From Prevotella sp. (GTDB taxonomy: Bacteria; Bacteroidota; Bacteroidia; Bacteroidales; Bacteroidaceae), in contig JAGCDO010000007.1 of assembly GCA_017651265.1 (NCBI GenBank), positions 1-64,000 of the forward strand: 64,000 nt of DNA, read 5' to 3'. Of the stretch, positions 61,938 through 64,000 are shown piece after piece. The notes under the pieces are model-generated. The model did no database searches and was not told the origin of the DNA. It worked only from the letters and a program-made list of their open reading frames with translations. Positions within the stretch are counted from its first letter, which is position 1. The number at the start of each line of letters is the position of its first letter. The position numbers and the translations under genes were made by a program.

Positions 61938-62164
61938 AAAGAACCTACAGAATCAAGGGCGGTGACACCATAGTCGCCGCCACTCCACAGGAGTTTGTCC
62001 GGGAACTGCATGAGGGGTCGCGCTTCGACTTCGGCGGTACCGACACTGAATACATGGAACGCTTCGCCATCCGGCTGGAGCAGCTCGAGGGCTACAGGAT
62101 ACGAACGGACACTCCGGAAACGTTCCTGGGCGATCTGATCGAGCACGGATTCGTCGAGACCTGA
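61934..62164 (+). CDS. Small protein coupled to the amidoligase
   Basis: A 76-residue protein, similar in layout to the protein at 60613-60864 (see there). ATG 61934 overlaps the amidoligase stop codon (ATGA), so the two are translated together. Its stop lies in the first 20-bp tandem repeat. Not in a named family. Confidence 0.6.
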   Translation: MKRTYRIKGGDTIVAATPQEFVRELHEGSRFDFGGTDTEYMERFAIRLEQLEGYRIRTDTPETFLGDLIEHGFVET

Positions 62165-62222
62165 CATGTATTGTTATTGTTCGACATGTATCGTTATTGT
62201 TCGACATGTATCGTTATTGTTC
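62163..62222. repeat. Tandem repeat, 3 x 20 bp
   Basis: Three 20-bp units (62163-62182, 62183-62202, 62203-62222) start GACATGTAT and end TTATTGTTC; units 2 and 3 are identical and unit 1 differs at one base. Each holds the palindrome ACATGT. They overlap the stop of the small gene and precede a terminator. Confidence 0.85.
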
Positions 62223-62253: not shown

Positions 62254-62269
62254 CTTTGCATTCGTTTTT

Positions 62270-62314
62270 CCCGAAATCTCTTGGAGGTTACGGGATTTTT
62301 TCATACCTTTGCCA
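62270..62314 (+). promoter_or_regulatory. Terminator-promoter module, copy 1
   Basis: CCCG (62270) pairs with CGGG (62291-62294) with further inner pairs (AATCTC/GAGGTT) and is followed by six T's, a terminator. Inside the loop CTTG (62280-62283) lies 20 bp before TACCTTTG (62304-62311), a promoter driving the exonuclease gene. The 45 bp recur exactly at 63493-63537. Confidence 0.7.
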
Positions 62315-62337: not shown

Positions 62338-63351
62338 ATGGATATCCTATTACCTAAATCTACTTACAGCAAGCCTGATGACATCCAGGCATTCCATCTG
62401 GACCGACAGTTTGCTGACGGCATCAGTTTTGTTGCCATCGACCTTGAAACGGCCACACAGCTCAGGAACTCCATCTGCGAGATCGGAATCTGTGTAGTGG
62501 AAAACGGCCTGGTGAAGGAAACGAAATCGTGGCTGGTCAAACCTCCCCACAATTTCTATGATCCGTTCAACACATACATTCACGGCATCTCTGCGGAAGA
62601 CACGGCAAACAGTCCGACGTTCTGCGAGATATGGCCTACGGTTCTTCCCTACCTGGACGGGAAGGTCGTTGTGGCTCATAATACGGCTTTCGATATGTAT
62701 GTGCTTAGGGACTCGTTCATGGAGAACTCCATGGCGTTCCCCCTTTTCGCGTTCTTTTGCTCATACCGACTGTCACGAAAGACCGTCACAGGGTGCTACA
62801 GCTATTCGCTTCCTCATGTCTGCAGAGAGCTCGGTATAGAGTTCACCAACCATCATAAGGCCGGAGCCGATGCCGAAGGATGCGCAAAGGTGTTCCTGGA
62901 GTGCCTGAAGAACTCCGGCGCAGCATCCTTTGAGGATCTGCAGGAGAAGTTTGACTTCAGGTGCGGAAGGTTCTCCAGTAGCTATTTCAGGCCACAGTTG
63001 GCAAACCACAGAGGTGGAGGTGGAGGTGGCAGGAAGATCTGCCTGAAGGATATCGTCGGCGACCCTTCGAAGATCGACGAAGGGAACTATTTCTATGGTA
63101 AGGAGGTATGCTTCACGGGAAAATGCCAGTTCGGTGTAAGGAAGAACCTCCTGCAGATGGTGGCCGATATCGGTGGTATTCCTGCCGATTCGGTGACGTC
63201 ACACACTGACGTGCTGGTCGTCGGACAACAGGACTACAGGAAAGTCGGTGATGACGGCATGAGTTCCAAGCAGGAGAAGGCCATGAAGCTGAAGGATAAG
63301 GGACAGGACATAGAAATCATGTCCGAAAGCGAGTTCCTCAGCAATATTTAG
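62338..63351 (+). CDS. DnaQ-like 3'-5' exonuclease with BRCT domain
   Basis: A 337-residue protein. Residues about 30-195 are a DEDDh exonuclease: Asp35/Glu37 in 'FVAIDLETA', Asp119 in 'HNTAFDMYVL', and His173 with Asp178 in 'HHKAGADAEG'. A Gly-rich linker (225-231) leads to a BRCT domain (about 251-335: 'GKEVCFTGKCQFG', 'ADIGGIPADSVTSHTDVLVVG'). BRCT domains bind DNA ends or phosphopeptides. It probably trims or proofreads phage DNA. ATG 62338 follows the promoter at 62304; longer frames cross it. Confidence 0.85.
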   Translation: MDILLPKSTYSKPDDIQAFHLDRQFADGISFVAIDLETATQLRNSICEIGICVVENGLVKETKSWLVKPPHNFYDPFNTYIHGISAEDTANSPTFCEIWPTVLPYLDGKVVVAHNTAFDMYVLRDSFMENSMAFPLFAFFCSYRLSRKTVTGCYSYSLPHVCRELGIEFTNHHKAGADAEGCAKVFLECLKNSGAASFEDLQEKFDFRCGRFSSSYFRPQLANHRGGGGGGRKICLKDIVGDPSKIDEGNYFYGKEVCFTGKCQFGVRKNLLQMVADIGGIPADSVTSHTDVLVVGQQDYRKVGDDGMSSKQEKAMKLKDKGQDIEIMSESEFLSNI

Positions 63352-63360
63352 GATCTTTGA

Positions 63361-63475
63361 TAAAGCGTGCTGTCCCGTAAGGGTGACACTCCGCGAGAAG
63401 CATCGGCGAGGTTGAAACGCCACAAATACAACGCATATATGTGATGCACAGCACGTCTCTTTTGCTTTTTTGATA
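63361..63475 (+). ncRNA. Structured RNA candidate after the exonuclease gene
   Basis: The ends pair over at least eight bases (CGTGCTGT at 63366-63373 with ACAGCACG at 63448-63455). Inside are CCC-GTAA-GGG, a GNRA hairpin (63374-63383), GGCG...CGCC (63405-63421) and GCAT...ATGC. A T-rich tail follows. No open frame of note. It could be a small RNA or a leader; it might also end the exonuclease transcript. Confidence 0.5.
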
Positions 63476-63492
63476 CCGTTTTATAAAATAAT

Positions 63493-63537
63493 CCCGAAAT
63501 CTCTTGGAGGTTACGGGATTTTTTCATACCTTTGCCA
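63493..63537 (+). promoter_or_regulatory. Terminator-promoter module, copy 2
   Basis: An exact 45-bp copy of 62270-62314: stem CCCG/CGGG with six T's, CTTG at 63503-63506 and TACCTTTG at 63527-63534. It ends exactly where the long structured RNA begins. Confidence 0.72.
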
Positions 63538-63937
63538 TCGCTAAACGTATAGAGCGGTTACGCTCCAGGGGCGGTGAAAGACGTCCGAACATCCGATCGG
63601 GCATTTTTTATGCTCTTACTTTCCGAGACCTGCCAGAGGTCTCACTACACCAATAGCGGTGGCCACCCAGTAGAATAAGCCCTTGAGCGAAGTCTATACG
63701 TTTAGCGACAGGGAAGGCTGCCGCTTTCCCTGTCCATAGGGGAAAGGTCCCGATGGCCGTGAGGCATCGGTGTTAGCCAAGGTCCGAAAGGATGTGTCTG
63801 AAACGTGAGAGGCCTTTCCCTTTCCCGAAAGACATTCCCAACACGGGAACGAAAGGTTCCCAACATGGGAACAACATATTCCCGACATGGGAACAACCGC
63901 ACAGGGCGGATCCCTGTACAGCTAAACGTATAGCAAT
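63538..63937 (+). ncRNA. Long multi-hairpin RNA or leader with alternative pairing arms
   Basis: About 400 nt from the promoter to the ATG at 63938, with no sizeable frame. A 16-bp inverted repeat joins 63538-63553 with 63693-63708; a third copy of its 13-bp core (GCTAAACGTATAG) is at 63921-63933, so the middle arm can pair with either end. Hairpins include GAGACCT/AGGTCTC (63625-63643), GGTGGCCACC (63658-63667), ACAGGGAA/TTCCCTGT (63708-63733), two GNRA hairpins (63750-63770 with GTGA, 63783-63792 with GAAA), a long-range GGGAAAGG/CCTTTCCC (63740-63820) and ACAGGG/CCCTGT (63901-63917). No known RNA class was recognised. It may be a free RNA or a control leader. Confidence 0.6.
63835..63893. 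repeat. Three palindromic units, period exactly 22 bp
   Basis: TTCCC-AACAC-GGGAA (63835), TTCCC-AACAT-GGGAA (63857) and TTCCC-GACAT-GGGAA (63879). Each can form a five- or six-pair hairpin in RNA; as DNA sites they would lie on one face of the helix. Confidence 0.85.
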
Positions 63938-64000
63938 ATGCAACAGACAACAATCAGATTCGACCATGTGCTGCAGGAGCAGCAGCGCGTCGACGTGGTG
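63938..64000 (+). CDS. Start of a gene running off the window, unknown
   Basis: ATG at 63938 opens a frame of 21 codons to the window end ('MQQTTIRFDHVLQEQQRVDVV'-like start, here residues 1-20 of it readable as 'MQQTTIRFDH'). It is too short to assign. It directly follows the alternative pairing arm at 63921-63933, so its translation may be controlled by the RNA. Confidence 0.5.
   Translation, partial: MQQTTIRFDHVLQEQQRVDVV

Follow-up and report, generated by a model that had tools for sequence, protein, structure and literature searches.

A predicted family of three-armed leader RNAs in Bacteroidales phages and other mobile elements

RESULTS

Three complementary arms between a promoter and a start codon

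We analyzed a 64,000-nt stretch of DNA from Prevotella sp. (assembly GCA_017651265.1, contig JAGCDO010000007.1, positions 1–64,000, forward strand), called the window below. Near its end, a noncoding stretch on the forward strand precedes an open reading frame, ORF1, that starts at 63938. Arm A1 (63538–63553, TCGCTAAACGTATAGA) lies where the transcript is predicted to begin, and over 16 bp it is perfectly complementary to arm A′ (63693–63708), which lies in the loop of a core helix. Arm A2 (63921–63933) repeats the 13 nt of 63540–63552 exactly, in direct orientation, making A′ complementary to A1 and A2 alike. CAAT and then the ATG at 63938 directly follow A2, so the arm ends four bases short of the start codon. 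An earlier, sequence-only reading of the window had proposed these three arms, and direct reading and a repeat search confirm their positions. Covariation, described below, also marks each of them.

The arms stand out from their surroundings. With up to two mismatches allowed, the 13-mer has five matches in the window versus 0.68 expected, a number reached in 0 of 100 shuffles; the exact matches are three, the arms themselves. A scan of the whole 3.16-Mb assembly (93.9% complete) finds exactly three copies of it, and none of the reversed control. A covariance model of the RNA (see below) finds one copy in the same assembly at E values up to 1. The 405-nt strand folds at –168.1 kcal/mol, versus –122.8 ± 6.3 kcal/mol for 100 shuffles (z = –7.2).

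Upstream lies a promoter (63504–63534, forward strand) that we take to be of the Bacteroidales type, with TTG at 63504–63506 and the –7 element TACCTTTG at 63527–63534; the earlier claim of a promoter ending at 63534 holds. Its assignment draws on recurrence among covariance-model hits, counted over the 97 distinct ones out of 102. TAnnTTTG occurs just upstream of the RNA in 95 of these 97, TTG lies 24–38 nt upstream in 95, and both elements are present in 94; for comparison, TTG was found in 315 of 2040 random 14-nt windows. Overlapping the promoter is a terminator-like inverted repeat with a T-run (63493–63524, forward strand; CCCGAA..TTaCGGG, then TTTTTT, recognized by eye), which would shield the unit from transcription arriving from upstream. 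The 46-nt terminator–promoter stretch is present in two exact copies, at 62269–62314 and 63492–63537. The former precedes a gene for a DnaQ-like exonuclease with BRCT (62338–63351, Pfam), and a structured RNA follows the latter only. Further upstream, between two genes, three 20-bp units (GACATGTATCGTTATTGTTC) stand in tandem at 62163–62222.

Relatives in viral and cellular genomes

BLASTN against named phages gave no match, and against plasmids a single 34-nt match (E = 0.01). With the gene at 63938 as query, seven viral contigs were found, and a DNA search matched 6 of 200 genomes of the same genus, its own included. In the whole-genome BLAST, 17 of 19 matches were stretches elsewhere in the same genome that resemble palindromic units at 63835–63900. 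All eleven relatives that were read have the three arms, with differing letters; in one (L022), A2 contains an extra base. L015, with a match of 34 nt, was left out of this set.

Two covariance models were used, a first one of 12 sequences and a broader one of 32, and the genome counts from both are lower bounds, as strict filters lose weak matches. Within the genus, 40 of the 398 genomes searched carried a match to the 12-sequence model (own genome counted); in a family-wide sample, 11 of 301 genomes and 8 of 30 genera did, several of these with weak scores. The 32-sequence model, run on 393 genomes from 206 genera of the order, matched 12 genomes in 10 genera (own genome counted); this order-wide search gave 13 matches, eight of which (L212–L219) were read. 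A phylum-wide sample searched with the same model yielded 1 of 395 genomes, namely the source genome itself. Four patterns based on the core, of which the second alone fixed part of A′, matched 43, 18, 15 and 17 stretches of IMG/VR (93 in all), and a pattern scan of named genomes gave 12 stretches. Carriers in the latter scan are Bacteroides xylanisolvens XB1A (L196), B. nordii (L206), Bacteroides, Parabacteroides, Dysgonomonas and Massilibacteroides, together with MAGs of Tannerellaceae, Bacteroidaceae and Bacteroidales.

Relatives share one combination of features: the promoter, A1 where transcription is predicted to begin, A′, and A2 by the start codon. In several genomic members the RNA is degraded or A2 is missing.

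Conserved and variable parts of the RNA

For covariation analysis we built a 50-row alignment, thinned by hand from 71 eligible short-class sequences. These were drawn from 102 model hits, spread over 100 sources, and were chosen for arm matches of at least 10, length below 330 and distinctness. Matching arms were required, a selection that excludes the long class as well as degraded members. Many positions of the alignment are invariant.

The core helix, on the forward strand, is formed by 63656–63668 and 63710–63724 (CGGCUGC..CG with CGGG..GCAGCCG). Its loop contains A′, and the helix crosses A1:A′. RNAalifold detected its covariation in a 12-sequence alignment, and in the 50-row alignment 97.9% of its cells are paired, with both-side changes in 4 of 15 pairs. 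Directly after it, 17 of 19 Bacteroides-type members have a T-run of at least 4, an arrangement compatible with a terminator in these members; the corresponding Prevotella-type figure (10 of 48), being partly mis-parsed, was left out of the argument.

Between A1 and the core helix lie two further elements of the forward strand. Hairpin H1 (63552–63565) overlaps the 3′ end of A1; its short-class equivalent is paired in 91.6% of cells, and both-side changes are seen in 5 of 5 pairs. Next is an attenuator-like region (63568–63613) composed of S1, S2, S3, a U-run and S4, in which S1:S2 plus S3:S4 would alternate with S2:S3. S1:S2 is paired in 97.2% of cells, 2 of 5 pairs changing on both sides, and S3:S4, around the U-rich loop, in 93.3%, with both-side changes at none. 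S2:S3 was considered as a terminator hairpin and dropped: it is paired in 95.5% of cells, but its covariation was equalled by 45 of 500 shuffles. A T-run of at least 5 is present in 92 of the 97 distinct model hits, and the U-run is broken in some members.

A variable insert (63735–63900, forward strand) between A′ and A2 contains GNRA hairpins and three 22-nt palindromic units. GNRA tetraloops had been noticed earlier, and GNRA-type loops are indeed present at 63755–63765 and 63783–63792; they lie outside the conserved element, however, because the insert that holds them is missing from short-class relatives. The palindromic units (TTCCCAACATGGGAAC-like) occupy 63835–63900, and an ORF1 of another locus (L037) contains related units. 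The conserved parts are the promoter, the arms, the helix crossing A1:A′ and the U-rich attenuator-like region.

The three arms change in concert

The letters of the arms vary between most loci but agree inside each locus. Strong covariation was found for both arm pairings in the alignment of relatives, a check that the earlier reading had proposed. In the 50 rows, selected for matching arms, A1:A′ shows both-side changes in 12 of 15 pairs, with 93.5% of cells paired; taken together with the core helix, 95.7% of cells are paired, versus 34.6–49.9% when slid. A′:A2 likewise changes on both sides in 12 of 15 pairs, and 94.6% of its cells are paired versus 31.5–41.5% when slid. A first RNAalifold run, on the 12-sequence alignment, did not show A1:A′, because the arms were misaligned between classes and A1:A′ crosses the core.

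The pairing also holds without selection on the arms. In 105 of 119 modules, all 13 nt of A′ pair on both sides (G-U allowed), versus 6 of 355 modules with a swapped A′; own windows were set by the A1:A′ match where found, a mild bias. At a threshold of at least 11 of 13, the counts are 115 of 119 for own and 63 of 355 for swapped modules, the latter reaching this level because the arms have a partial consensus in common. Exact matches of at least 9 nt to A′ are present in 79 (A1), 89 (A2) and 78 (both) of 92 viral sites; the 14 sites that miss at least one (13 A1, 3 A2) include some cut by locus ends. Among the eight later loci, two of them doubtful (L215 and L219), six pair at 11 of 13 or better with both arms and all eight have A′:A2 at 10 of 13 or better, counts that stand without a swap control. 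In some Bacteroides-type members A′:A2 reaches or enters the start codon, as judged by eye.

A1 and A2 are identical over 13 nt in 89 of 115 modules. Scoring 118 modules gave 52 positions at which they differ, and at 39 of these both pairs are kept through G-U, versus 14.3 expected. This points to selection on RNA pairing and not to repeats maintained in DNA.

How fast the arms diverge depends on the distance compared. Pairs 90–95% alike outside the arms have arms only 75–77% alike, identical in 0 of 10, though these pairs are few and non-independent. Where that identity reaches 95% or more, the arms are the same in 3 of 5 pairs; below ∼70% identity outside the arms, the arms are no more divergent than the remainder. 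We also considered the different arms of co-resident copies (10 of 11 multi-copy genomes or contigs) as evidence of orthogonality. This was dropped: random modules have a common A2 13-mer in only 0.36% of cases (an approximate figure, as the 13-mers were not offset-aligned), so the count carries no weight.

Competing duplexes of similar strength

Duplex energies and folds were computed for the 87 modules that passed arm-match filters of at least 9. Median energies are –25.2 kcal/mol for A1:A′ and –24.5 kcal/mol for A′:A2, versus –8.7 kcal/mol across modules; the stronger duplex is with A1 in 49 modules and with A2 in 37. In pseudoknot-free folding, A1:A′ exceeds 0.5 in 74 of the 87 before A2 is transcribed. 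In full-length folds of the same kind it dominates in 57 and A′:A2 in 18, whereas the window itself has A′:A2 at 0.66 and A1:A′ at 0.29. A default OFF state is not evident, since A1:A′ is ahead of A′:A2 in the folds of most members.

ORF1 and its genetic contexts

ORF1 begins at 63938 (63938–64000 of the window, forward strand) and runs past the window to 64249, encoding 103 aa. It corresponds to L009:3939–4250, stop included, and its end overlaps the start of the next gene. Hydropathy suggests a membrane protein, and a membrane-like stretch is present in 68 of 79 ORF1 proteins (81 calls minus name collisions in L064). The window's ORF1 could be aligned with 20 relatives at 28–75% identity. 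It had no match in PHROG, and its one Pfam match was below the cut-off. Bacteroidales rarely rely on Shine–Dalgarno-like motifs. A GGAGG-like motif nonetheless lies at the end of ORF1 beside the next ATG in 62 of the 81 calls (e.g. L009:4230–4252), which include a few wrong-frame or run-on ones (e.g. L101, L171, L067 and one of L064). No reverse transcriptase, the neighbor expected of a retron RNA, was recognized by eye among the downstream ORFs.

Downstream of ORF1 are small ORFs and then a tape-measure protein (PHROG), placing the unit in a prophage late region; its neighbors in the window are lysis and tail genes. Contexts at 21 loci include phage genes, with PHROG matches to terminase and tape-measure proteins. 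The reading that confined the RNA to phages was too narrow, as members also occur in other mobile elements. In L182 and L040 it precedes a Rep3–DnaB–ParA operon adjoining tRNA genes. In L040 the RNA is immediately preceded by three tRNA genes (L040:2375–2919), which suggests that the element integrated at a tRNA locus and has the RNA as its first gene. L181, a member without A2, has an HTH_17 gene and a tyrosine integrase, and L176 has a ParA gene, with a conjugation coupling protein upstream. Some members are followed by non-membrane proteins. One locus (L064:6537–7999) carries three tandem RNA–ORF1 units at spacings of 468 and 464 bp, no two of which have the same arm; its first ORF1 is truncated (47 aa), the second runs in frame through the third unit, and the third is complete.

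Taken together, comparative sequence analysis assigns the noncoding stretch to a family of predicted structured RNAs whose members occur in Bacteroidales phages and in further mobile elements of that order. It likewise shows adjacency of promoter and A1, display of A′ by a helix, alternative pairing of A′ with A1 or A2, and covariation of all three arms.

DISCUSSION

Relation to known RNAs

The RNA family is absent from Rfam. Against the 4227 families of Rfam 15, the window gave no match at gathering scores, whether riboswitch, leader or ribozyme; at E values up to 5, 63300–64000 matched no family, C4 (RF01695) included, and at E values up to 1, no match overlapped the RNA in 23 relative loci. 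The earlier reading had offered a new class of noncoding RNA and a translational switch as alternatives. Both find support, as a single thing: an RNA family with an alternative arm that ends at a start codon.

The closest parallels are phage immunity RNAs. C4 RNA has its segments in the order a1, a′, a2 on one strand, and RNase P processes it to a stable antisense RNA that acts in trans. In phages P1 and P7, it derives from a larger transcript by processing and combines a conserved scaffold with variable pairing segments; a ribosome-binding site is partly occluded by one segment, and the variable segment gives specificity in an immunity role (excerpts of PMC5320573 and PMC2864571). As in C4, a segment of the same strand is complementary to the translation start of the next gene, here through the covarying A′:A2. 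C4, however, is ∼77 nt long, with three stem-loops, and is listed for Proteobacteria and phages, whereas the present RNA is ∼200 nt to the end of the core and belongs to Bacteroidales. Unlike C4 with its two loops, it has one arm of 13–18 nt, a core helix crossing A1:A′, and A1 at the predicted 5′ end.

The CI RNA of phage P4 is processed from an untranslated leader and pairs with complements (seqA and seqC) upstream and downstream, as described in excerpts of PMC4825925. A′ is similarly complementary to an upstream and a downstream arm of the same leader, and some members lead replication operons, as P4 CI does (L182: Rep3 and DnaB). By description, P4 acts by premature transcription termination, which gives prophage immunity, whereas here the downstream arm lies at a start codon; P4 controls replication genes, whereas the window's unit stands among lysis and tail genes. 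The IsrK/orf45/anrP leader of Gifsy-1 is also a structured phage leader, in which ribosomes of a small ORF continue into the next gene; it comes from another host group, and the excerpted text does not describe three concerted arms (PMC4825925). The small RNA RteR of CTnDOT, to judge by a title cited in PMC10994844, is likewise a Bacteroides mobile-element RNA, one that inhibits transfer. Among the open-access matches listed, none describes a Bacteroidales RNA of this kind (subscription papers and preprints lie outside that scope), and the terms sought are absent from the excerpted text of PMC11897509. Our best reading by analogy is that the RNA would work like C4 and CI, without being filed as a C4 member, there being no Rfam match in the window or the 23 loci.

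A candidate address-coded switch

The most plausible reading, at a probability of about 0.52, is that the region forms the 5′ leader of a transcription unit that is self-contained and belongs to a mobile element; the leader would be autoregulatory and trans-acting in the manner of P4 CI and P1 C4, with the arms serving as an address. The address can pair with either the 5′ end of the transcript or the start of the next gene, an alternative that probably acts as a specificity-coded on/off switch for that gene. Pairing of A′ with A2 would block ribosome entry at ORF1 and, through the overlapping stop and start of ORF1 and ORF2, close the downstream operon as well. A1:A′, able to form first and about equal in strength, would leave A2 free. 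A separate RNA copy with A′, its A1 removed by processing, could then repress in trans, in the way known for C4 of P1 and CI of P4. The arm sequence would serve as the address and limit recognition to RNA of the same element: in the integrated state the operon would be kept off, and a superinfecting copy with a matching address would be acted against. We infer both trans action and the ON/OFF direction, the trans step from arm diversification and the resemblance to P4 CI and P1 C4.

A switch acting purely in cis is a credible minority reading, and on balance we doubt it. The leader's folding kinetics, or a ligand or protein bound to the core, would choose between A1:A′ (on) and A′:A2 (off). 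The nearly isoenergetic pairings suit this, as does A1:A′, which can form first and is still dominant in most full-length folds, and the many invariant alignment positions are what a binding site would show. It accounts poorly, however, for arms that outpace the remainder in close relatives despite a three-way constraint (small numbers), and for one leader ahead of unrelated operons. Improbable, in our view, is a transcription-attenuation or processive-antitermination leader, with S1–S4 plus the U-run and the core helix plus T-run as regulated terminators and the arms setting termination. The paired fractions of S1:S2 and S3:S4 (97.2 and 93.3%), the T-run of at least 5 in 92 of 97 hits and the T-run behind the core helix in 17 of 19 Bacteroides-type members would fit such a leader, but covariation of S2:S3 does not exceed shuffles, S3:S4 lacks both-side changes, the U-run is broken in some members, and the position of A2 at the start codon is left unexplained.

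The membrane-like stretch in 68 of 79 ORF1 proteins, together with the tandem units of L064, recalls type I toxin–antitoxin units. ORF1 would then be a small membrane toxin under a metastable leader like that of hok. The GGAGG-like motif by the next ATG in 62 of 81 calls and the RNA's position ahead of non-membrane proteins in some members both speak against this idea, to which we give little credence. Least probable by far are DNA-level repeats that have no function as RNA, for instance a target-site duplication or an invertible segment. One short sequence does occur in direct and inverted copies, yet 39 of the 52 A1/A2 differences pair with A′ only if G-U is counted, the arms form no fixed recombinase site, and the segment has a single orientation in the members read (an arrangement that the searches favor).

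The address-coded leader, acting in trans, might extend beyond single elements. Tentatively, and at appreciably less than even odds, we suggest an RNA address system common to phages and to integrative and plasmid-like elements of Bacteroidales. An interchangeable address of 13–18 nt on a common leader scaffold would separate self from non-self, define compatibility groups and gate any operon, whether for structural, replication, excision or transfer functions. Proteobacterial elements are known to have RNA-based immunity of the P4/C4 type, and Bacteroidales is a dominant order of gut and rumen. Were there a counterpart in this order, its three-arm covariation, readable from sequence, would allow prediction of which resident phages and mobile elements silence each other. 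The family would also provide natural RNA switches, each set apart by its address, and a mechanism of superinfection control open to direct testing.
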